NCBI RefSeq assembly: GCF_000381085.1
Contig: NZ_KB905899.1
Span: forward strand, 496,001-560,000
Source of the DNA: Thiomicrorhabdus arctica DSM 13458
GTDB lineage: Bacteria > Pseudomonadota > Gammaproteobacteria > Thiomicrospirales > Thiomicrospiraceae
Direction of reading: 5' to 3'
DNA: 64,000 nt
The position numbers and the translations under genes were made by a program. The stretch's first letter is position 1. The number at the start of each line of letters is the position of its first letter. This document shows positions 377 through 61,879 of this stretch, piece by piece. Under the pieces are notes generated by a model. That model was not told the DNA's origin and did no database searches. It saw only the letters and a program-made list of their open reading frames with translations.

Positions 377-1018
377 TTAAAATTGTTGGCTGATAGCATG
401 TGCCGCAGCTTTTATATCCGCTTGGCCAAAAACACCTTGAATGACCGCGAGGGAATCTACGCCTGCATCGATGAGTTGTTTGGCATTTATTTGGTTTATT
501 CCGCCAATAGCGACAATGGGAATTCTGAGGTTTTTCTTGGCTTGAATTAAGGTTTGAATACCGGCTTGTGGTGCATTAGGTTTTGTCAACGAGGGGAAAA
601 AACATCCAAATGCGACATAATCAGCACCCAAATTTTGCATCTGTTGAGCGCGTCGTAAATCATTGTAGCAAGTGACTCCTATAATGGCATCAGCGCCAAG
701 AATATCACGTGCAGTTTTCATATCTTCGTCATTTTTACCAAGATGTACCCCATGTGCTTGAGATTGTTTTGCAAGTTGAATATCGTCATTAATAATCAAC
801 CAGGCCTGGTGATTTTCGCACAGAGTTTTCAGTTGCTTAGCTAAGCTGAGTTGTAGCTCATAAGCCGAGTGTTTATCACGGAACTGGACAATCCTCGCTC
901 CGCCTTCTAATGCCAAGGAGACATCTGAGATTAACGTTTCTGGGGTTGAGCAACTCGGATCGGTAATGACGTATAGACCTTGAATGGTTTTATGCGTCAG
1001 GGGTAATGAGTAATCCAT
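377..1018 (-). CDS. thiE: Thiamine-phosphate synthase
   Basis: The enzyme joins HMP-pyrophosphate and thiazole phosphate to make thiamine monophosphate in the cytoplasm. At 213 aa it has normal length for a TIM-barrel ThiE. Visible landmarks are GLYVITD near residue 14, QFRDK, LIINDD, GVHLGKND, IIGVTCYN, the phosphate-binding DYVAFGCFFPSLTKP loop and IPIVAIGGIN. It appears to be a standalone ThiE with no ThiD fusion. hemL follows downstream on the same strand. I found no TPP riboswitch in the roughly 100 bases upstream. A CAGGCCTG element at 801-808 encodes Gln-Ala-Trp in this gene. Confidence 0.95.
   Translation of the reverse strand: MDYSLPLTHKTIQGLYVITDPSCSTPETLISDVSLALEGGARIVQFRDKHSAYELQLSLAKQLKTLCENHQAWLIINDDIQLAKQSQAHGVHLGKNDEDMKTARDILGADAIIGVTCYNDLRRAQQMQNLGADYVAFGCFFPSLTKPNAPQAGIQTLIQAKKNLRIPIVAIGGINQINAKQLIDAGVDSLAVIQGVFGQADIKAAAHAISQQF
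799..810. repeat. CAGGCCTG element 1 (ACCAGGCCTGGT)
   Basis: A 12-bp perfect palindrome inside thiE, read as Gln-Ala-Trp on the gene strand. It is the first of 15 copies of the CAGGCCTG core in the window. Confidence 0.95.
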
Positions 1019-2506: not shown

Positions 2507-2518
2507 ACCAGGCCTGGT
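2507..2518. repeat. CAGGCCTG element 2 (ACCAGGCCTGGT), intergenic
   Basis: A 12-bp palindrome between the gene at 2572 and rpiA. A half copy, AAACCAGGC at 2478-2486, lies upstream and could pair with GGCCTGGTTT at 2511-2520. This copy may therefore form alternative hairpins next to the terminator at 2527-2556. Confidence 0.95.
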
Positions 2519-7250: not shown

Positions 7251-7288
7251 AGAGGACTATGTCACCAGGCCTGATAACATCGTCCTCT
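7251..7288. terminator. Bidirectional hairpin between convergent genes
   Basis: AGAGGAC-t-ATGT (7251-7262) pairs with ACAT-c-GTCCTCT (7277-7288). A CAGGCCTG element lies in the loop region. TTT follows on the plus strand. It lies 17 bases after arfB and 20 bases before the end of the minus-strand gene at 7309. Confidence 0.7.
7266..7273. repeat. CAGGCCTG element 3, intergenic
   Basis: Core octamer in the context ACCAGGCCTGAT, located in the loop of the hairpin between arfB and the DUF4395 gene. Confidence 0.9.
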
Positions 7289-11081: not shown

Positions 11082-11747
11082 CTAGATGATTGTCTTACTT
11101 AATACTTGAGGTTGTATTAATCTTTTCTGATCTAACCAGGCCTGATTATCTTTAAAAGAGAGGCGACCTAATGCAAACCATTCAATGACAATTGGATAAG
11201 CGATGTGCTCTTGCTGGTGAACCTTTTCTCTTAAGCTGGTTTCGGTTTCATTTGGATCAATCTTGACGACGGCTTGCAATATAACGGGACCATTATCAAG
11301 TTCGGGCGTGACAAAGTGAATGCTCAAGCCGTGTTCTTTGTCGCTGGAATCTAAGGCGCGTTGGTGTGTGTGTAGTCCCGTATATTTTGGCAGTAATGAG
11401 GGGTGGATATTAATCATTTTACCCAAAAAATGTTGCGTAAATCCTTTTGTTAAAATGCGCATAAAACCTGCTAGAACAATGAAATCAATCTTAGCTTCTT
11501 CTAGTGCCTGTTGTAGCTTTGCATCAAATGATTCGCGGTCATTATAGTGGGTATGTTCAATCACCATGGTTGGGATATTTGCCTTTTGAGCCCTAACTAA
11601 ACCATAAGCATCGGCTTTGTTAGAAATTACCAGAGCAATTTCATATAAATCCGAGTGCAATTTTTGATGGTCAATAATGGCTTGAAGATTGGATCCGCTG
11701 CCAGAAATGAGAATAGCGATACGGGAAATAGAGTGAGAATTTTGCAT
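11082..11747 (-). CDS. purN: Phosphoribosylglycinamide formyltransferase
   Basis: PurN transfers a formyl group from 10-formyl-THF to GAR, the third step of purine synthesis. At 221 aa it is typical in length. Visible motifs are RIAILISGSGSNLQAIID (phosphate binding), VLAGFMRILT and the catalytic INIHPSLLPKYTGLHTHQRAL, which holds the Asn and His of the active site, with a late conserved aspartate in ELDNGPVI. It lies downstream of purM on the same strand, separated by 138 bases that contain a strong hairpin. A CAGGCCTG element at 11137-11144 encodes Gln-Ala-Trp near the C-terminus. Confidence 0.97.
   Translation of the reverse strand: MQNSHSISRIAILISGSGSNLQAIIDHQKLHSDLYEIALVISNKADAYGLVRAQKANIPTMVIEHTHYNDRESFDAKLQQALEEAKIDFIVLAGFMRILTKGFTQHFLGKMINIHPSLLPKYTGLHTHQRALDSSDKEHGLSIHFVTPELDNGPVILQAVVKIDPNETETSLREKVHQQEHIAYPIVIEWFALGRLSFKDNQAWLDQKRLIQPQVLSKTII
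11137..11144. repeat. CAGGCCTG element 4
   Basis: Core octamer in the context AACCAGGCCTGATT, inside purN and read as Gln-Ala-Trp on the gene strand. Confidence 0.9.
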
Positions 11748-16152: not shown

Positions 16153-17598
16153 ATGAAAGTAATGGGCATTAAAAAATCATCTAATCTCAAAAAGGGTATA
16201 TTGACCACCTTATTTGGTTTAATTGTTGTCTTAGAGGTGCAGAGCACACCAGTATTCGCTCAAGCGATGGACATAAATGAAAAAAAGTCAGTGGCAGCGG
16301 ATTCAGCCATTAAGGGGGACGACAATGATTTGCCGAATCCTTTAACGTTAGAATATTTGTTGAGCGAATATCCTTTGCATACGCCTCAAATACAATTGCA
16401 AAATGCACGACTGCAGCAAGCGAAAGGTGACACTCTTGCGAGCCAGATCACAGCAAATTGGCAAGCGAATATCGAGGGACGATTAGGCTGGAGGGAGTTT
16501 GCTCAAGACACGCAAGATCACCATCAATTAGCGTTACATCTAGGTAAGGTTTTATACGATTTTAACCAAAGTGACTTATCCATTAAATCTGCGCAACAAA
16601 ATGTAGTCGCTGAACAGCTGCTCATCAAGTCGGTATTAAACCAACAAAAATTAGCGGTCATGCAAGCCTTTTTTAATGTTCTACTGTCTGATTTTCAGTT
16701 TCGCGTCGACGATGAAGCTATGGCTGTGGAGTATGTAAATTTTGATAAGATCAAAGATCTTCATGCCATCGGCCAACGTTCAGATGTCGACCTATTGGCA
16801 GCTGACCTAAGCTATCAGAAAATACTCGTCGATCGAACGCGCTCTGAATCACGGCAATTACAGACCCGTGTTCAGTTAGCCAATATTTTACATCAGCCAA
16901 ATGCCAGGCCTGGTGAATTTACGTTCCCCAATCTTAAGAGCTTCTCAAAACGTTCCCTTAAGGATGTGGATTTGCAAGAATTACAGGAACAAGTGTTACG
17001 TGAGAGTCCTAAATTACATGCTGTATCACAACGTTTAGAGAGTCAGAGATTGGCTTTAGAAAGTGCACTTGCTGTGGGCAGCCCAACGTTAAGGGCAGAT
17101 GCTTGGGCTGGAAAACTTTCCAGTTATCCTAATGTTCGAGAAGGCACTTGGCGCGCAGAACTTTCTGTGAATATTCCTTTATATGATGGTGGCACAGAAG
17201 AGGCTGCAGTCGCAACAGCCAAAGCGAATTTTTCTGTAACAGAAGCTGAATATCAACAATCGTCTCAATCCTTACGGAAAGAAGTGACGGAGCTGTATTT
17301 TCAAATTAAACTGCTACAAGCGGAAAAGAAACAACACCAAGCTTTTGGTGATTATGCAGATCTCTATTTAGATTACAGTCGTGCCTTATATGAACATGAG
17401 TCGGCGACTGATTTAGGTGATTCCATGGTGCGTTTATCACAAGCGAATTATGACCTAGTGGCATGGCAATTCAAACAGGCCTTATTGTGGTCGCAAATAG
17501 ATTATTTAATGGGTAAAAAAGTGTGTCTGGATAACGGACAAAAATCGGATGATAGTCCATTCAAACTAAGCTTAAATAAACAGGAAATGCACTCGTGA
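16153..17598 (+). CDS. TolC-family outer membrane channel protein
   Basis: A 481-aa protein with a signal peptide (GILTTLFGLIVVLEVQSTPVFAQA). It has the alternating helical and strand pattern of an outer-membrane efflux protein, including the NPLTLEYLLSEYP start, a repeat-like second half and a SVNIPLYDGGTEEAAVATA segment that matches the family pattern. It ends with four bases overlapping the adaptor gene (GTGA), so the two are coupled. No inner-membrane pump or ATPase gene is adjacent. A second TolC-like gene exists at 50731. A CAGGCCTG element lies at 16905-16912. Confidence 0.88.
   Translation: MKVMGIKKSSNLKKGILTTLFGLIVVLEVQSTPVFAQAMDINEKKSVAADSAIKGDDNDLPNPLTLEYLLSEYPLHTPQIQLQNARLQQAKGDTLASQITANWQANIEGRLGWREFAQDTQDHHQLALHLGKVLYDFNQSDLSIKSAQQNVVAEQLLIKSVLNQQKLAVMQAFFNVLLSDFQFRVDDEAMAVEYVNFDKIKDLHAIGQRSDVDLLAADLSYQKILVDRTRSESRQLQTRVQLANILHQPNARPGEFTFPNLKSFSKRSLKDVDLQELQEQVLRESPKLHAVSQRLESQRLALESALAVGSPTLRADAWAGKLSSYPNVREGTWRAELSVNIPLYDGGTEEAAVATAKANFSVTEAEYQQSSQSLRKEVTELYFQIKLLQAEKKQHQAFGDYADLYLDYSRALYEHESATDLGDSMVRLSQANYDLVAWQFKQALLWSQIDYLMGKKVCLDNGQKSDDSPFKLSLNKQEMHS
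16904..16913. repeat. CAGGCCTG element 5
   Basis: CCAGGCCTGG inside the TolC-like gene. It is read as Ala-Arg-Pro-Gly, a different frame from the Gln-Ala-Trp seen in most coding copies. Confidence 0.9.
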
Positions 17599-18113
17599 AA
17601 TTGCAGCAAAAACTTGGTAGATTATCAATGGTTACGCTGGTTTTAACCGTAGGGTTATACAGCACAACCCTATATGCTGAGACGGTTAAGGTAGGCGCTT
17701 TGGTTGCCGGACAAGTCTCTAAAGTATACGTGCAAGCAGGTCAGATCGTTAAGAAAGGTGATCGTCTACTGACTCTAGACGCCGATCGTTTTCAAGCAAA
17801 ATTAAACAGTTTGCAAGCGATACTGCGTCTGCAAAAAGCCAAATTAGCAGATGCTCAAATTGAGTTGGACCAAGCCTTGGATCTCTATGAGCGAACAGTG
17901 ACATCCAAACGGACTCGCGATGCCGCACAATTAGCATATGACGTTGCCAGTGCCGCTTTTCAGCAAGCAAAGGCTGATGTTGCCTTGCAACAGGCCTGGT
18001 CAAAATATACTTATATTGTCGCTCCAGTGGATGGTAAAGTGCTTAAGATTCATGCGCCATTAGGAACAACGGTTTACAAAGAAAATAGTCCACTGATTGA
18101 TCTAGAAATATAA
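17595..18113 (+). CDS. Short HlyD/RND-type periplasmic adaptor
   Basis: A 172-aa protein with a signal peptide (LSMVTLVLTVGLYSTTLYA). It has the two halves of a biotinyl-lipoyl domain: VGALVAGQVSKVYVQAGQIVKKGDRL near residue 30 and YIVAPVDGKVLKIHAPLGTTVYKENSPLIDLEI at the end. A coiled-coil hairpin of about 80 residues lies between them. The beta-barrel and membrane-proximal domains of a normal 350-450 aa adaptor are missing. It starts with GTG, overlapping the TolC stop codon by four bases. A CAGGCCTG element (17991-17998) encodes Gln-Ala-Trp in the coiled coil. Confidence 0.85.
   Translation: MKLQQKLGRLSMVTLVLTVGLYSTTLYAETVKVGALVAGQVSKVYVQAGQIVKKGDRLLTLDADRFQAKLNSLQAILRLQKAKLADAQIELDQALDLYERTVTSKRTRDAAQLAYDVASAAFQQAKADVALQQAWSKYTYIVAPVDGKVLKIHAPLGTTVYKENSPLIDLEI
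17991..17998. repeat. CAGGCCTG element 6
   Basis: Core octamer in the adaptor gene, context CAACAGGCCTGGTC, read as Gln-Ala-Trp. Confidence 0.9.
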
Positions 18114-20086: not shown

Positions 20087-20729
20087 TTGACCAGGCCTGA
20101 TTAAGTAGATTGATAACGGTTGCATCGCTGACTTGGGGAAATTCTGCATACCACTGTCCAATCGATGACAGTCGTGATGGTTGTAACAAGCAGATAACCT
20201 CATCGGCCATTTGGCGTAAGGCCTCGATACTGTCTGGTGAGGCCACAGGAATCGCCACGATTATTTTCTGCGGTGTGAGTTGCTTGACGGCCTCAATTGC
20301 AACAGACATCGTTGCGCCTGTGGCTACCCCGTCATCCACGAGAATGACAATTTTATGGTTAAGGTTGGGAAAAGGGCGCTTGCCACGATAAAGTTGAGCA
20401 CGACGATTAAGTTCTAAACGCTCCCTTTTTTCAACGACATCCAATTCAGGCTGATGAATGCCATAGCGAAGTACGATGTCTTCATTGAAGAATTTAATGC
20501 CGTTGCTCGCGATTGCCCCCATCGCCAATTCAGAATAGCCAGGAGTCCCTAATTTTCTGACCAGCAATAAATCCAGTGGAGCATTGAGCTTTTCAGCGAT
20601 CTCAGAAGCAATCGGTACACCGCCTCTGGGTAAGGCCAGAACAATGACATTTTCTGGGTTCTTATAAGAGGATAACGCTTCTGCAAGTTCATGCCCAGCC
20701 ACAGTTCTATTGGGTATTATGGTTTGCAT
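20076..20729 (-). CDS. Phosphoribosyltransferase-family protein
   Basis: A 217-aa product from the ATG at 20729, which follows GAGGTG at a good distance. A GTG three codons earlier is less likely. The PRPP-binding motif VILVDDGVATGATM and the N-terminal ALPRGGVPIASEIAEKL pattern identify a type I phosphoribosyltransferase fold. The actual base substrate cannot be told from sequence. The last codons contain a CAGGCCTG element (Gln-Ala-Trp at LLNQAWSNES). It is the first gene of a two-gene unit with the hydrolase. Confidence 0.88.
   Translation of the reverse strand: MQTIIPNRTVAGHELAEALSSYKNPENVIVLALPRGGVPIASEIAEKLNAPLDLLLVRKLGTPGYSELAMGAIASNGIKFFNEDIVLRYGIHQPELDVVEKRERLELNRRAQLYRGKRPFPNLNHKIVILVDDGVATGATMSVAIEAVKQLTPQKIIVAIPVASPDSIEALRQMADEVICLLQPSRLSSIGQWYAEFPQVSDATVINLLNQAWSNES
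20092..20099. repeat. CAGGCCTG element 7
   Basis: Core octamer in the last codons of the phosphoribosyltransferase gene, context GACCAGGCCTGATT. It is read as Gln-Ala-Trp and lies just upstream of the hydrolase start codon at 20084-20086. Confidence 0.9.
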
Positions 20730-21350: not shown

Positions 21351-22295
21351 TTATTTTTTATTTCTTTTATGACGAGCACGTCTCAACTTTTTATCTTCTT
21401 CTTTGGCTTTAAGTTTCTCGGCTTTTTTTAGCCGCTGGAGATCAACCTGTTCTAACTCGGTTTCCATCATTTTAGGCGTCTCTAACGTAATATTGCCTAA
21501 TACATTATCACGATATTCAACAATTAGGATGCGTGATACTTTATCTAAATCCACCATACCACCCGAACGTAGACAACCTCGTTGGCGACCAATAGCTTCT
21601 AAGAGTTCTATATCTGTTAAAGGGAGTTCCTTGAGGTTAAAACGTTCTTTTAAAAGTTCTGGATAAGCTGACAATAGATATTCGCAGGCATAAGAGGCAA
21701 TGTCTGGCAGCTCAAAAGCGGTCTCTTTAATCCCACCAGTAATCGCTAGACGATAACCGCTGTTCTCATTTTCAATATTGGGCCATAGCATGCCTGGAGT
21801 ATCGATCAACGTAATGCCTTCTTCCAACTTAATACGTTGCTGATTTTTAGTCACGGCGGGTTCATTGCCTGTTTTGGCAATAGTACGTCCGGTAATGTTG
21901 TTAATCAGGGTCGACTTGCCGACATTGGGGATGCCAATAATTAACGCATGAATCGTTTTGACAGAGTTGACTTTTTCAGGCACCAGTTTTTTAATCATGC
22001 TAATAATCTGTTCGCGCTTATCCCCAATTTGGGAATTGAATGCTAGCGTTTTAACACTTTTTTGCTGTTCAAAATAATCCTGCCAGGCCTGGGTATTTTC
22101 AGGGTCAGCCAAATCTGTTTTATTGAGGATTTTAATGGTTGGTTTATCACCACGAATCTCTTCAATCATAGGGTTTTGGCTACTGAATGGAATACGCGCA
22201 TCTAACACTTCAATAAAGACATCAATCTGGCTAAAAATTTCACGAACTTCTTTTTGAGCCTTGTGCATGTGACCCGGATACCATTGAATGGCCAT
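21351..22295 (-). CDS. rbgA: Ribosome biogenesis GTPase YlqF/RbgA
   Basis: A circularly permuted GTPase required for late steps of large-subunit assembly. The 314-aa protein shows the permuted motif order: NKTD (G4) at 58-61, GIPNVGKSTLIN (G1) near 121 and DTPG (G3) at 165-168. The N-terminus MAIQWYPGHMHKA is diagnostic of the YlqF group. A very basic C-terminal tail (KAKEEDKKLRRARHKRNKK) may contact rRNA. It has its own terminator. A CAGGCCTG element lies at 22084-22091. Confidence 0.95.
   Translation of the reverse strand: MAIQWYPGHMHKAQKEVREIFSQIDVFIEVLDARIPFSSQNPMIEEIRGDKPTIKILNKTDLADPENTQAWQDYFEQQKSVKTLAFNSQIGDKREQIISMIKKLVPEKVNSVKTIHALIIGIPNVGKSTLINNITGRTIAKTGNEPAVTKNQQRIKLEEGITLIDTPGMLWPNIENENSGYRLAITGGIKETAFELPDIASYACEYLLSAYPELLKERFNLKELPLTDIELLEAIGRQRGCLRSGGMVDLDKVSRILIVEYRDNVLGNITLETPKMMETELEQVDLQRLKKAEKLKAKEEDKKLRRARHKRNKK
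22083..22092. repeat. CAGGCCTG element 8
   Basis: CCAGGCCTGG inside rbgA, read as Gln-Ala-Trp (ENTQAWQDYF). Confidence 0.9.
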
Positions 22296-24080: not shown

Positions 24081-24481
24081 TCATTATTCACTTAAATTAA
24101 GTCAATAATGAATTATAACGAATTAAAAATAGGTAGCTGATTAGTATTTATCACCGTGGTGTATATTTTTTTAATGAGAGCACGCATTTCTGGCGTCTAG
24201 AGCATAGGGATGAGTTTTACAGCAGGGTAGGTCTATAAGTTTAGGTGATTGGACGCCATTAATGAGCGCTTTAAAATGGAATTAAGGACACAAAAAAACC
24301 AACCAGGCCTGGTTGGTTCCTTGAGAAACCCAAGAATCAGTCTAAAATATTTATGTACAATTCTACTTAGAATGAACCAGCATCAGCTTAGCTTAACTAA
24401 CCAAATCGGTGGACATGTAAAAATGCCTTAAAAATAGAAAGCACGGCAATCGATTAAGTTGGTTAGGGCAAAGATGTAACT
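24081..24481. other. 401-base gene-free region
   Basis: Only the yggL terminator built from a CAGGCCTG palindrome (24297-24318) stands out. A 60-codon open frame at 24249 reads across that palindrome and has no coding character. Confidence 0.6.
24297..24318 (-). terminator. Terminator built from CAGGCCTG element 9
   Basis: A perfect 22-bp palindrome: AACCAACCAGG followed by its complement. On the minus strand it is followed by TTTTTTTG (AAAAAAACC on the plus strand), the normal form of an intrinsic terminator except that the stem has no loop bases of its own. It lies 164 bases past the yggL stop codon, so it terminates that transcript. The core is the CAGGCCTG octamer. Confidence 0.8.
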
Positions 24482-27718: not shown

Positions 27719-28029
27719 GCTATCGGTTCCTTATTTACGCTTAACTACTCTGTTCTTGAGGTTCTATGAGATGCATTGAACGATCGATTATAAGTTAAAT
27801 AAGCGGTTTTATAAGCAAAGTCGTAAAAATAAATAGAGTGGTTTTTGACCAGGCCTGGTCAGTTTTAAATTATTTATAATATGCAGTTAGCGAAGCCTTA
27901 TGATCTAAACCTTGTCGATGAACTGCTTTAAGGTTCTAACGGGTTAAAAAAATGGGGTTTTTGTTTATGGTCAGTGCTTGATTGGATAGGTTAAAATAGT
28001 GGCCTAATTTAATACATAAGTAGAAAATC
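27719..28029. other. 311-base region between divergent genes
   Basis: This region must hold promoters for the antiporter (minus) and the DUF2058 gene (plus). The only clear structure is the 16-bp palindrome at 27846-27861. No certain promoter was identified. Confidence 0.5.
27846..27861. repeat. CAGGCCTG element 10 (16-bp palindrome TGACCAGGCCTGGTCA)
   Basis: A perfect 16-bp palindrome between the divergent antiporter and DUF2058 genes. The identical 16-mer occurs at 56235-56250. No T run follows on either strand, so it is not an obvious terminator. Confidence 0.95.
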
Positions 28030-28581
28030 ATGGCAGGATCCCTATTTGATCAGCTGAAAAAAGCCGGTTTGGTTGATGACAAAAAAGCCCAAAAGGCCAA
28101 GAAAGAAAAGTATCAGCAAACGAAACAGAGTAAAGGCAAGAAGGGTCAGAAACCCGTTGTAAATGAAGTCACCAAGATCGCCGAAGAAGCGGCAAAGCAA
28201 AAAAATGAGCGTGACCTTCAACTAAACCTTGAGCGTAAGCAACAGCAAGAAAAGAAAGCGACTTTAGCCGAGTTACGTCAGATCATTGAGACAAATCGCA
28301 TGAGTGGTTTTGAGGGGGATGTTGTATACAACTTTGCCGATGAGAGCACCGTCAAAACATTGAGCGTGAATAAAAAGATACAACGAGCACTGGTAGCGGG
28401 TACCATTCGCTTAGCGCGTTTTGAAGGCGGTTATGCTCTGATTCCGATCGAAGCGGCGAACAAGGTTGATCAACGTGATCATTCAGTATTGATTTCAATG
28501 GCCGTAGTCGATGAGTCGATCTCGCAAGAAGACCAAGATTACTATGCCCAGTTTGAAGTGCCAGATGATCTGATCTGGTAA
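28030..28581 (+). CDS. DUF2058 (YaiL-like) protein
   Basis: A 183-aa protein with a highly charged, lysine-rich N-terminal half (MAGSLFDQLKKAGLVDDKKA, then long KKE/KQ runs to about residue 90), likely a coiled coil. A small folded C-terminal domain contains YNFADESTVKTLSVN and RLARFEGGYALIP. These are the marks of the DUF2058/YaiL family, thought to act on nucleic acid or in nucleoprotein complexes but without a proven function. It is followed by a strong terminator hairpin shared with the convergent FKBP gene. Confidence 0.85.
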   Translation: MAGSLFDQLKKAGLVDDKKAQKAKKEKYQQTKQSKGKKGQKPVVNEVTKIAEEAAKQKNERDLQLNLERKQQQEKKATLAELRQIIETNRMSGFEGDVVYNFADESTVKTLSVNKKIQRALVAGTIRLARFEGGYALIPIEAANKVDQRDHSVLISMAVVDESISQEDQDYYAQFEVPDDLIW

Positions 28582-28652: not shown

Positions 28653-28692
28653 AAGCAACATAAAGTGAGTTTAAACTCACTTTATGTTGCTT
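28653..28692. terminator. Terminator, perfect 40-bp palindrome between convergent genes
   Basis: AAGCAACATAAAGTGAGTTT is followed directly by its exact complement. The minus strand has TTTTTT after the stem, so it terminates the FKBP gene, and on the plus strand it ends the DUF2058 transcript. Convergent genes share it. Confidence 0.93.
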
Positions 28693-28736: not shown

Positions 28737-29357
28737 TTATGAAATGATATTAAGTAACTCTACGTCAAAAATTAACGCTGAAAATGGAGCTATCTTTGCG
28801 CCAGAACCTTGTGAACCATAGGCGAGCTCTTGAGGCACATACAAACGCCATTTTGACCCTTGAGGCATTATTTGTAATGCTTCCGTCCAACCGGCGATAA
28901 CGCGATTCACTGGAAACTCAGCGGGTTGACCACGTTCAACAGAACTATCAAAAACCGTTCCATCAATTAAGGTCCCGTGGTAATGCGTTGAAACGACAGA
29001 ATCCGCCGTTGGTAAAGCGCCTTCACCGGCGATAATGATTTCATATTGCAGACCTGAATCCGTGACAAAAACGCCATCCTTCTGAGCATTTGCCGCTAAA
29101 AACTCTTCACCTTCAACGCCCGCAACCTTAGCCAACTCGGCTTGCTTTGCTTGCATAATCTCGTTGATTTCTTCAAAAGCCTTCGCAAATGCCTCTTGGC
29201 TAACTGGGCTCTCTGTGCCTTCTAAAGAGTCAATGACACCGGCTGCAACCGCTTGAGCGTTAATTCCTTCAAAAGGGTCAGAAGCCAATTGATCACCCAT
29301 TTGGCGACCAATACCATAGCTTACAATATCAGGGGTAGTCGTAAAGTTGTTAGACAT
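28737..29357 (-). CDS. FKBP-type peptidyl-prolyl isomerase, FklB/FkpA-like
   Basis: The product has 206 aa from the ATG at 29357 (MSNNFTTTPDIVSYGIGRQMG). Fourteen extra residues from a longer frame are hydrophobic and could be mistaken for a signal peptide, but the shorter start matches the FklB family. Residues 1-95 form the helical dimerisation domain. The C-terminal FKBP domain has DSVVSTHYHGTLIDGTVFDSSVERGQPAEFPVNRVIAGWTEAL and YGSQGSGAKIAPFSALIFDVELL. It catalyses proline isomerisation in folding. The location is probably the cytoplasm if the short start is right. Confidence 0.88.
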   Translation of the reverse strand: MSNNFTTTPDIVSYGIGRQMGDQLASDPFEGINAQAVAAGVIDSLEGTESPVSQEAFAKAFEEINEIMQAKQAELAKVAGVEGEEFLAANAQKDGVFVTDSGLQYEIIIAGEGALPTADSVVSTHYHGTLIDGTVFDSSVERGQPAEFPVNRVIAGWTEALQIMPQGSKWRLYVPQELAYGSQGSGAKIAPFSALIFDVELLNIIS

Positions 29358-30099
29358 AATTAGAAATCCAGTAGATAAAAAAAAGAGTAATTTTAGCATA
29401 AAACATAAGTAAAGATAAACGTAAGGGAGTGGACGTATTAAAGGTTCAGAATAGTTTATAAATTTTGGTGGGTTTACTCATGTGAAGCAAATACACGCTT
29501 TTAATGTCAGAGAAGGGAGTTCTCTTCGGCTATGCCAATCCCTGGATTAGGTTTCATGCTAAGACCCTTCCATATTATCAACAGAGGATAGCAATTTTAA
29601 ATAGCTCATAATGTGAAGGAAGGTCTTTTGAATCATTGCTAACGTCTGTTTTTTCAGCTTTGGTTTATAGCAATCTAGGCGGTGGTATAAAAGCCTGCAC
29701 ATCAAGCTGAAGATCTAATGGGATGGATTGGATATTGTTATCCATAAAGCAATCACTGAATGCGTTAATTATCTCCTTTTGCTCGAGATCTGGGCACTCA
29801 ATTACATCCAAATTATTATTTGGCAGAAAATTCGTTAGAATTTTGTCGTGTGCCACGAATATTGCGCCGAGCAACCTGTTCAATATCCCTCTAAATAGAG
29901 TCCACTATCATTATTGAACGTATTGGCAATCAAACCAGCACCATTCTGACGGATGTTGTCATTCAAATTACCTGCCTTCTAGGTTTATATATTAATGTTG
30001 ATGGCATTGTTGTCAGGGAGGTAACAGAAGGCTACCTATTTAAGCGAGAGGGTATACACAGTAAATGAATCAATCAAAAAATATCACCAGGTCGGGTCA
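29358..30099. other. 742-base region with only degraded open frames
   Basis: Open frames here are short and disagree in strand. 29665-29883 (minus, 72 codons, TTG start) has some protein-like composition (IECPDLEQKEIINAFSDC) but no homology I recognise. 29895-30068 (plus, 57 codons) has no start codon. The inverted repeat AAGACC...GGTCTT near 29570-29632 has a long loop. It may be the remains of one or two genes. Confidence 0.45.
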
Positions 30100-44724: not shown

Positions 44725-45612
44725 ATGCGTACACGTGTTTTGAATAAATTATGTTTAAAACACGCTCCCTTGATTTTAGCGCTGGGCTTGGTCATAAGCC
44801 CTGTGGTTAAGTCAAGTTCTTTGACCACTTCCCCCCCCAATTATAAGTTATTTGCTGAGTTACAATCATTAACCCAAGCAGATTACCAATGGATTGGGGA
44901 ACGAATTTATCAAAATGAGTGTGCTGGGAAGCCTAAGTACTTAACCTATTGGGGCAGGGGCGAAACGTTCCCTTCATTTGGTATAGGCCACTTTATCTGG
45001 CATCCTAAACTTGCCGAAAATCGCGCTGAACATAGGTTTACGGAAACGTTCCCCGCGATGGTTGAATTTGTCTCTAAAACACAGAGGCCTCCTGATTGGT
45101 TACAAAAGTTATCTTCCCAAACTGAATTTATGGCTCCTTGGTCTTCAAAAGAAGCGTTTGACCAGGCCTGGTCAAACGCTGAATTGCAACAACTTAGACA
45201 TTGGCTATTAACCACCCAGTCTCAACAAGCTCAGTTTATTGTTGTGGCCTTCCAAAACCGCTGGTTAAGTGAAATCCAATCCCTTACCTTAAATCAGCAA
45301 GTCATTATTCAGCAACGTTTAGATAAGATGATGAGTTTTAAAAAAGGTCTGTTTGCCGTGATTGACTACTTTAACTTCAAAGGTATTGGTCTGAATAAAA
45401 AAGAGCAGTACCAGGGCAGCTCTTGGGGATTGGCTTCGGTGCTGAAGTCTATGGATGTGGCAGAAAAGAGTTCGCAAGATGAATATTTAAAGCAATTTGT
45501 CATCGCAGCAAAAAAACGCCTTCAGTTACGCATCACGTTAGCACCGGCTGAACGTAATGAACTTCGTTGGCTAAAAGGTTGGTATGTTCGTTTAGATCAA
45601 TACTTAAAATAA
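44725..45612 (+). CDS. Exported protein of an uncharacterised conserved family
   Basis: A 295-aa protein with a signal peptide (HAPLILALGLVISPVVKS). The mature part has a recurring motif I-G-E-R-I-Y-x-N-E-C, LTYWGRGETFPSFGIGHFIWHP near residue 75, and FKGIGLNKKEQYQGSSWGL. I recognise the sort of conserved pattern (N-E-C, GxGE-FPSxGIGHF) but not a function. A lysozyme-like or transglycosylase-like role is only a guess. Two features are odd: a C8 tract in the N-terminal coding region (44831-44838) and a 28-bp perfect palindrome (45153-45180). Confidence 0.75.
   Translation: MRTRVLNKLCLKHAPLILALGLVISPVVKSSSLTTSPPNYKLFAELQSLTQADYQWIGERIYQNECAGKPKYLTYWGRGETFPSFGIGHFIWHPKLAENRAEHRFTETFPAMVEFVSKTQRPPDWLQKLSSQTEFMAPWSSKEAFDQAWSNAELQQLRHWLLTTQSQQAQFIVVAFQNRWLSEIQSLTLNQQVIIQQRLDKMMSFKKGLFAVIDYFNFKGIGLNKKEQYQGSSWGLASVLKSMDVAEKSSQDEYLKQFVIAAKKRLQLRITLAPAERNELRWLKGWYVRLDQYLK
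44831..44838. repeat. C8 homopolymer tract inside the 44725 gene
   Basis: Eight consecutive C fall in the early codons (Thr-Ser-Pro-Pro-Asn), just after the signal peptide. A change of one base would shift the reading frame and truncate the protein. Confidence 0.95.
45153..45180. repeat. CAGGCCTG element 11, perfect 28-bp palindrome in a gene
   Basis: The left arm AGCGTTTGACCAGG is followed by its exact complement, all inside the coding sequence (EAFDQAWSNA). It is the longest extension of the CAGGCCTG core in the window. Its core is read as Gln-Ala-Trp. Confidence 0.97.
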
Positions 45613-52150: not shown

Positions 52151-53680
52151 TTGAAACGACGTTCCTTTATTCAAGCAGGCCTGGTAAGTTTACCAGGACT
52201 GAGTTTTTTGGGTCTCCAGAGTTGTCAGAATGTGTCGAATCATCAAAGCTCTATTCGGGTGGGTATTACTTCTCGCCCACGCATGTTAGACCCGCGTAAA
52301 GCCACTGATGCTCTGTCGAGTCGCATTAATCGTCTGATTTACCGTCAGCTGATTGATTTTGACGAACGTTTCCAAGCCATTCCAGATTTAGCCAGCTGGT
52401 TACAACTCTCCAATACCCATTATCGTTTTACGCTCAATGACTCGTTACCCTTTCATCATGGTAAAAAAATGGCCGCAGAAGATGTGGTTGCGACCTACCA
52501 AAGTGTACTGAATCCGGACCTAGGCTCCGCACACAGGGGTTCGTTGAAAGGTATTAAAGAGATCATTGCGGTGAATGAACGGCAAGTTGATTTTATTCTT
52601 GATAAAGCAGATGCCTTGTTTGTTGGGCGTTTGGTCATTGGTATCTTACCGAAAGACTTGATTGATAAAGAGCATGTTTTTCATGAGACACCGATCGGTT
52701 CGGGACCTTGCCAGTTTATCTCTTTATCTGAACAGAAGCTGGTATTGCAACGTTTATCCGATTTGTCGAAACTTGTTTTTATACCTGTCAAGGACGCTAC
52801 GGTTCGCGTATTGAAATTACGAAAGGGTGAACTGGACATCATTCAAAATGACCTGTCACCAGAGTTAGTCAACTACTGTAGCAAGCAAAAAGGCCTTAAG
52901 GTTGAGTGGCACAGCGGCACCAATTTTGGTTATATCGGTTTTAATTTCGAAGATGAGTTGCTGGCACAAACGGCAATGCGGCAAGCATTGGCTTATGGTA
53001 TAGATCGTCAATCCATTATTGATGCTATGTTTGACGGACGAGCGCGTTTAGCGGGTGGCCTGTTGGTACCTGAACACTGGAGCGGTGTGAAGGATATTCA
53101 CGGTTATGATTATCAGCCTGAGAAAGCCAAAGCCTTGTTAAAGAGAGTGATTGTTCCATCAGAATTAGTTAAAAAAGATTCTAATAATCAACAGTTTATT
53201 GAGTTAAGTTATAAAACTTCTAATGATCCAACCCGGATTCGTTTAGCGACTATTTACCAGTCACAATTGCGGAAAATTGGTATTCACCTGAATATTCAAA
53301 GCTATGATTGGGGCACCTTTTACAGCGATATCAAGAAGGGGCGTTTCCAATTATATAGCTTGGCGTGGGTAGGCGTTAAAAGTCCGGACATTTTCCAATA
53401 TGCTTTTGACTCCAATGCAATTCCTCCCAAAGGGGCTAACCGAGGACGTTATCGAGACGCAACGGCAGATCAGTTAATTAGAGAGGCTGGGCAAACGCAA
53501 TCATTAGAACAACAAGCACTCCTGTATCAAAAATTACAACGTCACTTACAAGATACTCTGGCTGTTATACCGCTTTGGTATGAAGATCAGTATTCGGTAA
53601 TGCGCTCTAATATCAGCGGTTATGTCCTCTATGAAGATGGACGTTTGGATGGATTATTGCAGGTACAGAAGAAAATTTAA
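52151..53680 (+). CDS. ABC-type peptide-binding protein (family 5)
   Basis: A 509-aa extracytoplasmic solute-binding protein for peptides or related compounds. The start is TTG at 52151, with GGAG nine bases upstream. The N-terminus MKRRSFIQAG fits a Tat signal (R-R-x-F), and an LQSC lipobox-like site near residue 25 could make it a lipoprotein. SSRINRLIYRQLIDFD, the FHHGKKMAAEDV segment and DQVSLW-type conserved stretches are family 5 features. The downstream YkuD enzyme and two permease genes point to murein-peptide uptake. Confidence 0.88.
   Translation: MKRRSFIQAGLVSLPGLSFLGLQSCQNVSNHQSSIRVGITSRPRMLDPRKATDALSSRINRLIYRQLIDFDERFQAIPDLASWLQLSNTHYRFTLNDSLPFHHGKKMAAEDVVATYQSVLNPDLGSAHRGSLKGIKEIIAVNERQVDFILDKADALFVGRLVIGILPKDLIDKEHVFHETPIGSGPCQFISLSEQKLVLQRLSDLSKLVFIPVKDATVRVLKLRKGELDIIQNDLSPELVNYCSKQKGLKVEWHSGTNFGYIGFNFEDELLAQTAMRQALAYGIDRQSIIDAMFDGRARLAGGLLVPEHWSGVKDIHGYDYQPEKAKALLKRVIVPSELVKKDSNNQQFIELSYKTSNDPTRIRLATIYQSQLRKIGIHLNIQSYDWGTFYSDIKKGRFQLYSLAWVGVKSPDIFQYAFDSNAIPPKGANRGRYRDATADQLIREAGQTQSLEQQALLYQKLQRHLQDTLAVIPLWYEDQYSVMRSNISGYVLYEDGRLDGLLQVQKKI
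52176..52197. repeat. CAGGCCTG element 12 with overlapping inverted repeat
   Basis: CAGGCCTG at 52176-52183 in the signal-peptide region of the binding-protein gene, read as Ala-Gly-Leu. It overlaps an inverted repeat CCTGGTAA-gt-TTACCAGG at 52180-52197. Confidence 0.9.
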
Positions 53681-55369: not shown

Positions 55370-56173
55370 GTGTTACGTTATTTAAGTTATAGCATTGTCG
55401 TTGTCTGGTTATTGATGGCTATATTAGGATTTGTCATTGGTGAGAGTGCCAATGAAGTGGTTTTGTCACAATTTTTAACGGGTCCAAATGCCCAGGCCTG
55501 GTTAGGTTCAGATGAGTTGGGTCGTCCAGTGCTTGAACGTCTTGTTTTAGGTGCACAAACTTCGTTGTTTGTTGCAATGGGTGTGGTGTTCTTCTCTGCA
55601 ATTATCGGCACCACCATTGGCATCTATAGTGGTTATATGGGCGGATGGACGGATCGTATTATCACCAAAATAATTGATGTTTTCTTAGCCTTTCCAGGTT
55701 TACTATTGGCAATCGCTTTAGCGGCTATTTTGGGGCCGGGTATTGAAAATGTTGTGTTTGCCTTAGTCGTGGTCGGCTGGGTAGGCTACGCTCGTTTAGC
55801 CAGAGCACAAACCTTAAGCTTACGCCATCGTGAACATATCTTAGCGGCACGTTCACTTGCTGTGCCGATGCCGTGGATATTGTGGCGCCATATCTTACCC
55901 CTTATTCTGGCACCTTTAGGGGTGGAAGCCACTTTTGGTGTGGCGGGTGCCGTGATTTCAGAAGCCGGACTGTCTTTTCTGGGGTTAGGGGTTCAACCAC
56001 CCGATGCTTCATGGGGCAGCATGATTAAAGAGGGTACACGTTATCTTTTGGTGGCACCGCATCTGGTGTTGGCACCTGGTATCGCTTTAATGTTGGTCGT
56101 TTTAGCCGTTAATTTAATTGGTGATCAATGGCGTGATTATCTAGATGTACGATCGCGGAAATCGAATCGTTAA
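55370..56173 (+). CDS. ABC transporter permease, DppC/OppC type
   Basis: A 267-aa membrane protein with about six hydrophobic helices and a GTG start, because a stop codon lies just upstream in frame. The sequence LGSDELGRPVLERLVLGAQTSLFV and the EAA loop REHILAARSLAVPMPWILWRHILP are typical of DppC/OppC. ISEAGLSFLGLGVQPPDASWG is the family end signature. No ATP-binding subunit is encoded here or elsewhere in the window, so the pump must borrow one. A CAGGCCTG element (55493-55500) encodes Gln-Ala-Trp. Confidence 0.92.
   Translation: MLRYLSYSIVVVWLLMAILGFVIGESANEVVLSQFLTGPNAQAWLGSDELGRPVLERLVLGAQTSLFVAMGVVFFSAIIGTTIGIYSGYMGGWTDRIITKIIDVFLAFPGLLLAIALAAILGPGIENVVFALVVVGWVGYARLARAQTLSLRHREHILAARSLAVPMPWILWRHILPLILAPLGVEATFGVAGAVISEAGLSFLGLGVQPPDASWGSMIKEGTRYLLVAPHLVLAPGIALMLVVLAVNLIGDQWRDYLDVRSRKSNR
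55492..55501. repeat. CAGGCCTG element 13
   Basis: CCAGGCCTGG in the DppC-like gene, read as Gln-Ala-Trp (NAQAWLGSD). Confidence 0.9.
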
Positions 56174-56234: not shown

Positions 56235-56250
56235 TGACCAGGCCTGGTCA
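56235..56250. repeat. CAGGCCTG element 14 (16-bp palindrome TGACCAGGCCTGGTCA)
   Basis: A perfect 16-bp palindrome in the short gap between the convergent permease and MOSC genes, identical to the one at 27846-27861. Confidence 0.95.
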
Positions 56251-59231: not shown

Positions 59232-59289
59232 TTAACATGCCTAATCCTTGTAGCGATTAAGCCTTAGTTTTCAGTATTTAGAAACCAAA

Positions 59290-59324
59290 AAAAACCTGAC
59301 AGAGTACTCTATCAGGTCTTTTTT
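59290..59324. terminator. Bidirectional terminator between mscS and murB
   Basis: ACCTGA-c-AGAG pairs with CTCT-a-TCAGGT, flanked by A and T runs (AAAAAAA before, CTTTTTT after). It ends mscS (plus) and murB (minus), which converge here. Confidence 0.9.
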
Positions 59325-59372
59325 GTGCATAGGGTGTTGTTATAGCGTTATTTTAATCGCTAAAAGTGATCA

Positions 59373-60445: not shown

Positions 60446-61879
60446 ATGAGCCAACTAAAACTTTCTAAGGATTCATGGTCTTCGCAGACAGTTTTTATTA
60501 TGGCCGCGATTGGTTCTGCCGTTGGATTAGGCAATATTTGGAAGTTTCCCTACATTACGGGTGAAAATGGTGGCGGAGCATTTGTCTTGGTTTACTTAGC
60601 TTGTGTCTTGTTGATTGGTTTACCGGTCTTGATATCGGAAATTGCCCTGGGTAGATCCGGTAAGGCTAACCCCATACAGGGTATGGCGAACTTAGCACGT
60701 GAGAATGGGGCCAGTAAATTATGGGTCTTGTTAGGGTTTAATGGCGTTTTGGCAGGCGCCTTAATTCTCTCGTTTTATACCGTCATTGCGGGTTGGGCAT
60801 TTGCCTATTTTTTCCAAAGTTTATTCGGGGTTTTTGACCGTATAACCGCGACTGAAGTAGGTGCGCATTTTGATCATTTGTTGGCGAATCCTTATGAGTT
60901 AATATTTTGGCACACTTTTGTGACGGTAGTAACGGTCTTGATTGTTTCTAGAGGCGTAAAAAGTGGCTTAGAAAAAGCGATTAATTTTATGATGCCGGGT
61001 CTTTTATTTATTTTATTGGTTCTATTAGGGTATTCGACGACAACGGGTTCTTTTGGACAAAGTTTTGATTTTTTATTCTCCGCCGATTTTTCTAAATTGA
61101 CTTGGGAATCGGTCTTAGTGGCGATGGGACATGCGTTTTTCACTCTCAGCATCGGATTAGGTACCATGATGGTATACGGCTCTTATCTATCTCAAGAGTA
61201 TTCGATTGTGAAGGCCAGTCTCTGGATTGCATTTGCAGATACAGCCGTTGCATTGTTAGCAGGCCTGGTGATTTTTTCAATTGTGTTTGCGAATGGTTTA
61301 GAAGCGAGTTCTGGACCTGGTCTTCTATTTCAGACATTGCCTATCGCATTTTCTCAAATGACGGCAGGGTGGTTTTTTGGCACACTTTTTTTTGCATTGG
61401 TCGTGATGGCCGCATTGAGTTCATCTATCTCTTTAATCGAACCTATTGTGAGTTGGTTTGATCAAAACTGGGGCATAAAAAGAGTAAAAGCGGCCTGTAT
61501 TTTGGGGTTTATTATTTGGTTTGTGGGTTTTGGTACCGTCTTGTCGTTTAATGAGTGGCAAGATATTCACTTTATAGGCGAACGTACATTCTTTGAGTCA
61601 CTCGACTTAATCACAACAAATATTATGCTGCCGTTAGGAGGTTTTCTAATGACGATATTTGTTGCTTGGGTCATGCGTTCAAAAGAAAGGGAGAAGCAAA
61701 TTGAGTTGTCCACGAACAAGATGAAACTCTTTCTATTCGTTCTTAAATGGATTTCACCAGTGGCAGTGATGGTGGTATTCGCTTCTAATTTAGTCGCGGG
61801 AGAAATTGCCATCGCAATGCTTGGCGTTGCATTTCTGATGTATGCGTTTTATGCATGGAATGTGAGTCGTAAAATATAA
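60446..61879 (+). CDS. Sodium-dependent transporter, NSS/SNF family
   Basis: A 477-aa membrane protein with about twelve transmembrane segments, related to LeuT and bacterial neurotransmitter:sodium symporters. Family marks are FIMAAIGSAVGLGNIWKFPYITGENGGGAFVLVYL at the N-terminus (the unwound helix 1 with the Na+ and substrate sites) and a later STSISLIEPIV-like stretch (SSSISLIEPIV). The substrate is probably an amino acid, but the sequence does not specify it. A CAGGCCTG element is at 61260-61267. Confidence 0.93.
   Translation: MSQLKLSKDSWSSQTVFIMAAIGSAVGLGNIWKFPYITGENGGGAFVLVYLACVLLIGLPVLISEIALGRSGKANPIQGMANLARENGASKLWVLLGFNGVLAGALILSFYTVIAGWAFAYFFQSLFGVFDRITATEVGAHFDHLLANPYELIFWHTFVTVVTVLIVSRGVKSGLEKAINFMMPGLLFILLVLLGYSTTTGSFGQSFDFLFSADFSKLTWESVLVAMGHAFFTLSIGLGTMMVYGSYLSQEYSIVKASLWIAFADTAVALLAGLVIFSIVFANGLEASSGPGLLFQTLPIAFSQMTAGWFFGTLFFALVVMAALSSSISLIEPIVSWFDQNWGIKRVKAACILGFIIWFVGFGTVLSFNEWQDIHFIGERTFFESLDLITTNIMLPLGGFLMTIFVAWVMRSKEREKQIELSTNKMKLFLFVLKWISPVAVMVVFASNLVAGEIAIAMLGVAFLMYAFYAWNVSRKI
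61260..61267. repeat. CAGGCCTG element 15
   Basis: Core octamer in the NSS transporter gene, context GCAGGCCTGGTG, read as Ala-Gly-Leu-Val. Confidence 0.9.

Follow-up and report, generated by a model that had tools for sequence, protein, structure and literature searches.

Why should a protein-coding gene of Thiomicrorhabdus arctica DSM 13458 carry a perfect palindrome of 28 bp? The palindrome, AGCGTTTGACCAGGCCTGGTCAAACGCT, is read as E-A-F-D-Q-A-W-S-N-A within the ORF 44725-45612 of a 64,000-nucleotide stretch of DNA that was analysed in full (hereafter the window), and inspection confirmed its description in the initial annotation as perfect, in frame and placed inside a coding sequence. 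Random sequence is expected to hold only about 0.0002 palindromes of 28 bp per window (64000/4^14). The right null model for the 28-mer is, however, a repeated motif rather than random sequence. The core had been said to be common to other places, and this holds, with 15 copies of CAGGCCTG in the window where 0.43 would be expected (Table 1). The larger finding is this motif, which resembles a recognition sequence and recurs across the family in several dialects; the 28-mer is one of its copies.

Table 1. Location in the window of the palindrome, its host gene and the other copies of the motif core
Feature	Position	Strand	Remark
Host gene, 295-aa protein	44725..45612	+	putative export, as read in the initial annotation
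28-bp perfect palindrome AGCGTTTGACCAGGCCTGGTCAAACGCT	45153..45180	.	direct sequence inspection
Inner 20 bp TTTGACCAGGCCTGGTCAAA	45157..45176	.	full family motif
Core CAGGCCTG of the 28-mer	45163..45170	.	codons Q-A-W
CAGGCCTG copy	801..808	.	
CAGGCCTG copy	2509..2516	.	intergenic by simple ORF calling
CAGGCCTG copy	7266..7273	.	intergenic by simple ORF calling
CAGGCCTG copy	11137..11144	.	
CAGGCCTG copy	16905..16912	.	
CAGGCCTG copy	17991..17998	.	
CAGGCCTG copy	20092..20099	.	
CAGGCCTG copy	22084..22091	.	
22-bp perfect palindrome AACCAACCAGGCCTGGTTGGTT	24297..24318	.	on CAGGCCTG core
16-bp palindrome TGACCAGGCCTGGTCA	27846..27861	.	intergenic by simple ORF calling
CAGGCCTG copy	52176..52183	.	
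CAGGCCTG copy	55493..55500	.	
16-bp palindrome TGACCAGGCCTGGTCA	56235..56250	.	intergenic by simple ORF calling
CAGGCCTG copy	61260..61267	.	

A motif-free perfect palindrome of 40 bp also lies in the window (28653-28692), between the convergent ORFs 28030-28581 (+) and 28737-29399 (-); it folds at -29.3 kcal/mol and is probably a bidirectional terminator. Another word, GAGTACTC, which we take to resemble the core of SlmA sites, is found three times in the window against 0.37 expected (for example, at 59286-59325).

The repeated unit spans about 24 bp, AAAnTGACCAGG joined to CCTGGTCAnTTT. Each half-site reads CCTGGT(C/g)AnTTT, and the information reaches position 12 with little past it, so that a sharp symmetric GC core, ACCAGGCCTGGT, is flanked by A/T tracts that lie 10-12 bp off the centre. 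Within the 2.55-Mb genome, CCAGGCCTGG occurs 397 times and its reversed control never. A 464-kb sample of this genome, made up of 20 stretches plus the window, contained 104 copies of CAGGCCTG and 80 of CCAGGCCTGG, whereas 29 scrambled palindromes of equal make-up averaged 0.2 copies, the largest count being 3. Perfect copies outnumbered those with a single mismatch both in this sample (80 vs 35; G000) and in the relatives G019 (143 vs 58 in 400 kb) and G024 (37 vs 11 for ACCGGCCGGT in 80 kb). The copies are randomly spaced, with a CV of 1.02 over a 320-kb block of this genome.

The history of the site was traced in the host gene, whose only Pfam signal is ZapD, below the cut-off. Orthologues of the 295-aa protein exist in 34 of the 37 genomes, own included; close relatives in genome_contigs could not be confirmed. 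The alignment took in 30 of the 35 matches; for four further genomes (G011, G024, G025 and G035), 20-kb regions were searched for sites instead. CAG-GCC-TGG stands at the same codons in 14 of the 18 genomes with the CAGGCCTG motif, own included (the exceptions being G002, G009, G010 and G035), and two other genera (G033 and G036) are among those that keep it. Thirteen genomes show no enrichment of a GGCC motif, and in none of them does the site stand at these codons. Codon constraint alone as the source of the bases does not agree with this pattern: all 14 site-bearing orthologues use the same three codons, and the 11 orthologues aligned from those 13 genomes have neither the bases nor Q-A-W. 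Orthologues of G004 and G021 read CAG-GCC-GGG at the site, which in G021 fits that genome's own asymmetric dialect, the G004 sample being too small for such an assignment. The orthologue of G024, a genome of the CCGGCCGG dialect, has three sites of its own dialect elsewhere in the gene and none at the codons of the 28-mer. Elsewhere in the window, the CAGGCCTG copies that start at 52176 and 55493 each have a G019 counterpart at about the same codons.

The alignment also indicated how the site was born. Eleven of the 14 site-less orthologues are gap-free across it (the gapped ones being G020, G027 and G031), which argues, in the one gene compared, that the site came by substitution and speaks against the duplication by inversion that the initial annotation had suggested. 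The same kind of insertion-versus-substitution comparison was used by Redfield for USS (PMC1626085). The site is thus old, has been kept as DNA and arose by substitution. The initial annotation had asked whether the arms arose together, and the 28-mer did not originate as a unit. The inner motif is old, since two other genera carry it at the same codons; the outer 4 bp on each side were found, among the 30 aligned loci, in the own genome only, and at the position of the 28-mer the palindrome of the closest relative, G007, measures 22 bp.

How unusual the full 28 bp are was estimated by re-pairing half-sites at random. Among 51 coding copies in the 464 kb, this null expects 0.55 palindromes of at least 20 bp, against two observed, and 0.01 of at least 28 bp, against the one observed (p ~0.009). 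The motif consensus thus accounts for the inner 20 bp, and the extra lies in the outermost 4 bp per arm, an excess to be read with the caveat that the locus was picked for being extreme. This rare extension is most likely due to chance as a first reading, and it may also have grown slowly through templated mutation. The 28-mer is not the longest palindrome among the sampled CAGGCCTG copies (n = 104), the longest perfect ones being of 32, 34 (two) and 44 bp, all at intergenic copies.

As determined with a simple longest-ORF rule rather than a curated annotation, the own genome contains 0.125 copies per kb in coding sequence, 0.89 in codirectional, 1.66 in convergent and 0.47 in divergent intergenic regions, and G019 follows the same order of densities. 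The motif is therefore densest in gaps at the 3′ ends of genes, yet present in coding sequence, and the poverty of divergent gaps relative to convergent ones argues against a regulator acting on the promoter side. Intergenic palindromes of at least 20 bp occur at 11 of 53 copies against 1.8 expected, and several intergenic copies lie at the tip of hairpins that resemble terminators, with perfect palindromes as long as 44 bp. Among the 51 coding copies, the Q-A-W frame leads with 31. In G019, 189 copies were counted in 20 evenly spaced 20-kb samples (mean 9.45, variance 9.52), a Poisson spread, and this sample (400 kb of 2.44 Mb) revealed no trend towards ori or ter. Mobile islands were considered as a source of copy-free gaps and discarded, since the largest gap, read by eye, holds the nuo operon and its neighbours and the second housekeeping genes.

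Among the genomes searched, enrichment is limited to the family of Thiomicrospira, Hydrogenovibrio and Thiomicrorhabdus, placed by NCBI in Piscirickettsiaceae and named Thiomicrospiraceae in GTDB. CCAGGCCTGG was counted in 58 genomes, the own one among them: members of the genus have between 0 and 856 copies, and the highest count outside the family is 35 (G048, reversed control 10). The 12-mer ACCAGGCCTGGT occurs 333 times in the own genome and 181 times in G035, and at most five times in each of the other 272 of the 274 class members searched, among them the congener G027, with none. The exact 20-mer TTTGACCAGGCCTGGTCAAA was found in 48 stretches of genome_contigs, 47 of them from Hydrogenovibrio, Thiomicrospira or Thiomicrorhabdus records and the remaining one from a MAG assigned to the Gammaproteobacteria but to no named genus. 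In a weakly resolved RimO tree of 28 genomes, G003, with two copies, falls among motif-rich species and the dialect genome G024 beside G020 and G027.

Stretch sampling and whole-genome counts revealed several dialects: CCAGGCCTGG, ACAGGCCTGT, ACCGGCCGGT and an asymmetric form, AAAACTCAACAGG followed by CCGGGT. CCTGGT half-sites characterise G000, G019, G009 and G016, and mixed CCTGCT/CCTGTT half-sites G005, G008, G018 and G026. The CCGGTAAAnTTT dialect belongs to G024, where the pattern ACMGGCCKGT has 1031 copies, compared with 4 for its reversed control and 3 for the pattern itself in the own genome. The asymmetric form was found in G021, at about 20 copies in 60 kb; its 21 oriented sites have the A-tract on one side only (L121, L122 and L216). 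In G035, CT/GT half-site pairs make up 13 of 28 against 5 GT/GT, hinting that its motif is also asymmetric.

Five genomes without the GGCC motif (G012, G017, G023, G028 and G029; stretches L111, L117, L124, L127 and L129, respectively) carry instead G(7-11) tracts at 0.3-0.8 per kb, compared with 0.02-0.03 per kb in G000 and G019. By extrapolation, these tracts amount to hundreds or more per genome, and they lie mostly in coding sequence. In 69 of them, A/T reaches 84-99% at positions +3 to +8 over a background of 58%, with the consensus AnAAATTT, and on the 5′ side it is near background (52-70%) except at -1 (97%). No orientation bias relative to genes was detected (28 vs 32 of the 69, with 9 intergenic). 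The five genomes are all fragmented drafts, although the conserved tail on one side only makes it unlikely that the tracts are artefacts of assembly.

In a further eight genomes (G003, G011, G013, G014, G020, G025, G027 and G031), 51-131 kb of each contained no comparable enriched word, the best being 10-mers with 6 copies against 0.15-0.23 expected (G011 and G020). Repeat arrays also occur in two relatives. G020 has a tandem array of a 60-bp unit (L034, 9920-15632), with AGGCAGCTAAGA repeated 96 times at 59-61-bp steps, and in G019 (L046, 43-3817) GTGGATTGAAAC recurs 38 times, for the most part every 65-67 bp, in an arrangement that resembles a CRISPR array.

What, then, is the motif for? Among the explanations offered in the initial annotation, a recognition site for a protein fares best, and the 28-mer is a candidate site of this kind. 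More specifically, the anatomy of the motif makes it, on balance, probable that it is a DNA-uptake signal working like the USS and DUS. The strong consensus, the non-coding excess, the origin by substitution, the A/T tract, the association with terminators and the existence of dialects are all recorded for USS and DUS (PMC1626085, PMC3630211). An excess of perfect over singly mismatched copies was described as a puzzling mark of these sequences, unlike regulatory sites (Redfield et al., 2006; PMC1626085). According to this reading, a surface or periplasmic receptor of the type IV pilus/ComEC transformation system would bind the motif and prefer DNA that bears it. The imported DNA would recombine into the chromosome and slowly fill the genome with perfect copies, a molecular drive through biased import and recombination (PMC1939737), and a change in the receptor would reset the drive to a new dialect. 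The motif would merely happen to read D-Q-A-W-S in frame in the host gene, and the mRNA hairpin of the palindrome (predicted to fold at -19.5 kcal/mol, with 12 bp in the stem and 4 nt in the loop) would be a by-product.

The uptake machinery was searched for in the same 37 genomes. ComEC is encoded in 33 of them, own included, where the comEC ORF (876 aa; L017, 6181-8811) itself contains three in-frame Q-A-W copies of CAGGCCTG (genome positions 346661, 347927 and 348539). ComEC is also present in seven of the eight genomes without a comparable word (G003, G011, G013, G014, G020, G025 and G027, not G031), and the motif thus does not track ComEC. ComP_DUS (PF16732) gave no match above the cut-off in the 37 genomes, nor did it in 14 control genomes, so the sensitivity of this search is unproven; one sub-threshold match came from G020. 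Two other receptor candidates were set aside: GspH/FimT (PF12019) passed the cut-off in only three of the 37 genomes (G011, G020 and G027), all without the GGCC motif, and a cluster of four to five genes that emerged from a survey of 23 genomes for N_methyl pilins reads by eye as type II secretion GspF-K. The receptor of Pasteurellaceae is itself, in the available text of PMC12616744, only predicted. Among the literature matches listed, none reported the motif or transformation in the Thiomicrospira-Hydrogenovibrio-Thiomicrorhabdus family, none of those for CCAGGCCTGG was about bacterial genome repeats, and the accessible part of PMC6501319 contains nothing on the motif.

Of the alternatives to an uptake signal, the one that survives best, although unlikely, is a binding site for an abundant nucleoid or chromosome-organising protein (parS, SlmA/Noc, MatP-like or another dimer). 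Two-fold symmetry, a length of about 24 bp and A/T tracts at a fixed distance are typical of a dimer site. Against it, the copies in G019 have no ori or ter trend, and it is hard to see how hundreds of sites could switch dialect together, or how a homodimer would accommodate the asymmetric dialect. Next, and rather improbable, comes a scheme such as that proposed for GCGATCGC (HIP1) in cyanobacteria, in which an orphan DNA methyltransferase and a bias of methyl-directed repair create and keep the sites (Elhai, 2015; PMC4390886). The palindromic form, the hundreds of copies, the alternate palindromes in relatives and the palindromic extensions agree with that description, and motif-bearing genomes do encode C5-methyltransferases (G002, G006, G007, G008, G009, G019 and G030) or PF01555 enzymes (G005, G008, G030 and G035). 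In contrast, the own genome lacks both the C5-methyltransferase PF00145, searched for in 37 genomes, and the N4/N6-methyltransferase PF01555, searched for in 25 of those, and neither family was matched in the dialect-bearing G000, G015, G018, G021, G022, G024, G026 and G033. These eight genomes led to the rejection of a C5- or N4/N6-methyltransferase as a requirement, the search being confined to these two families. Moreover, the asymmetric G021 dialect and the A/T flanks misfit a symmetric methylase target.

It is very unlikely that the 28-mer is the scar of a local inversion or of a templated quasi-palindrome mutation with no functional link, an explanation that could apply to the outer 4 bp only. 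It would explain why 28 bp are rarer than re-paired half-sites predict and why position 11 stays paired in both G007 and G000 with different bases; both changes at this position, however, are synonymous third bases, the inner 20 bp belong to a motif found across the genome, with its core at the same codons in two other genera, and 11 of the 14 site-less orthologues show no gap. A Chi-like recombination hot spot would likewise be short, very frequent and family-specific, but it is highly improbable, as a palindromic motif cannot be oriented and the asymmetric poly-G tracts are unbiased with respect to the gene strand in the drafts. Least credible of all is a mobile small palindromic repeat (REP/RAYT or MITE-like), which would account for the high copy number and the terminator-like hairpins between genes, but not for the short unit, the unchanged length of the coding sequence across the site in 11 of 14 comparisons, the random spacing and the scant information in the flanks past position 12.

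If the motif is an uptake signal, a broader interpretation can be put forward tentatively: one family may use and repeatedly rewrite a self-recognition tag for DNA uptake, with the half-and-half asymmetric form lying between the symmetric GGCC palindrome at one extreme and tracts of 7-11 Gs tailed by AAATTT at the other. Were this true, the two-fold symmetric GGCC tag could be read whichever end of a DNA fragment came first, and the hundreds of copies in each genome would track receptor change, writing residues such as Q-A-W into proteins, ComEC included. A tag at the DNA level would then be able to impose amino acids on proteins. The uptake-sequence papers, in the parts available, are about the Pasteurellaceae and the Neisseriaceae; free-living sulfur-oxidising chemolithoautotrophs would supply a third such family, and the 32 congeneric genomes, with palindromic, asymmetric, poly-G or absent tags, would represent a natural experiment on how and why uptake specificity evolves.

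Compared with known systems, the motif shares with HIP1 and the alternate HIPs the nature of highly repeated GC-rich palindromes that replace one another in relatives (PMC4390886), and differs from HIP1 in its A/T flanks, its asymmetric dialect, its strong excess at gene 3′ ends and the eight dialect-bearing genomes without a methyltransferase of the two families. It differs from DUS in being palindromic, in the larger jumps between dialects and in the lack of ComP_DUS above the cut-off, and resembles them in having several dialects in one family around a common central element and in its association with terminators, also described for DUS (Frye et al., 2013; PMC3630211). Copy density is lower than the approximately one per kb of USS and DUS (0.16 per kb for the 10-mer in G000 and 0.36 in G024). 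With respect to USS, the core is asymmetric there, whereas here the main dialects are palindromes flanked on either side by A/T tracts; known uptake sequences are described as non-palindromic (Bakkali, 2007; PMC1939737), which characterises them without being a demonstrated requirement. The same article, in the text available, states that they are not biased towards sites downstream of genes, where an excess exists here. The likeness to USS nonetheless comprises the short core, the predominance of perfect over one-off copies, the AT-rich tract at a fixed distance, the non-coding excess, the origin by substitution and the subtypes within a family (PMC1626085). It extends to the poly-G genomes, whose AnAAATTT tail is close to the AT-rich segment of USS, in which As come first and three to four Ts last (PMC1626085).
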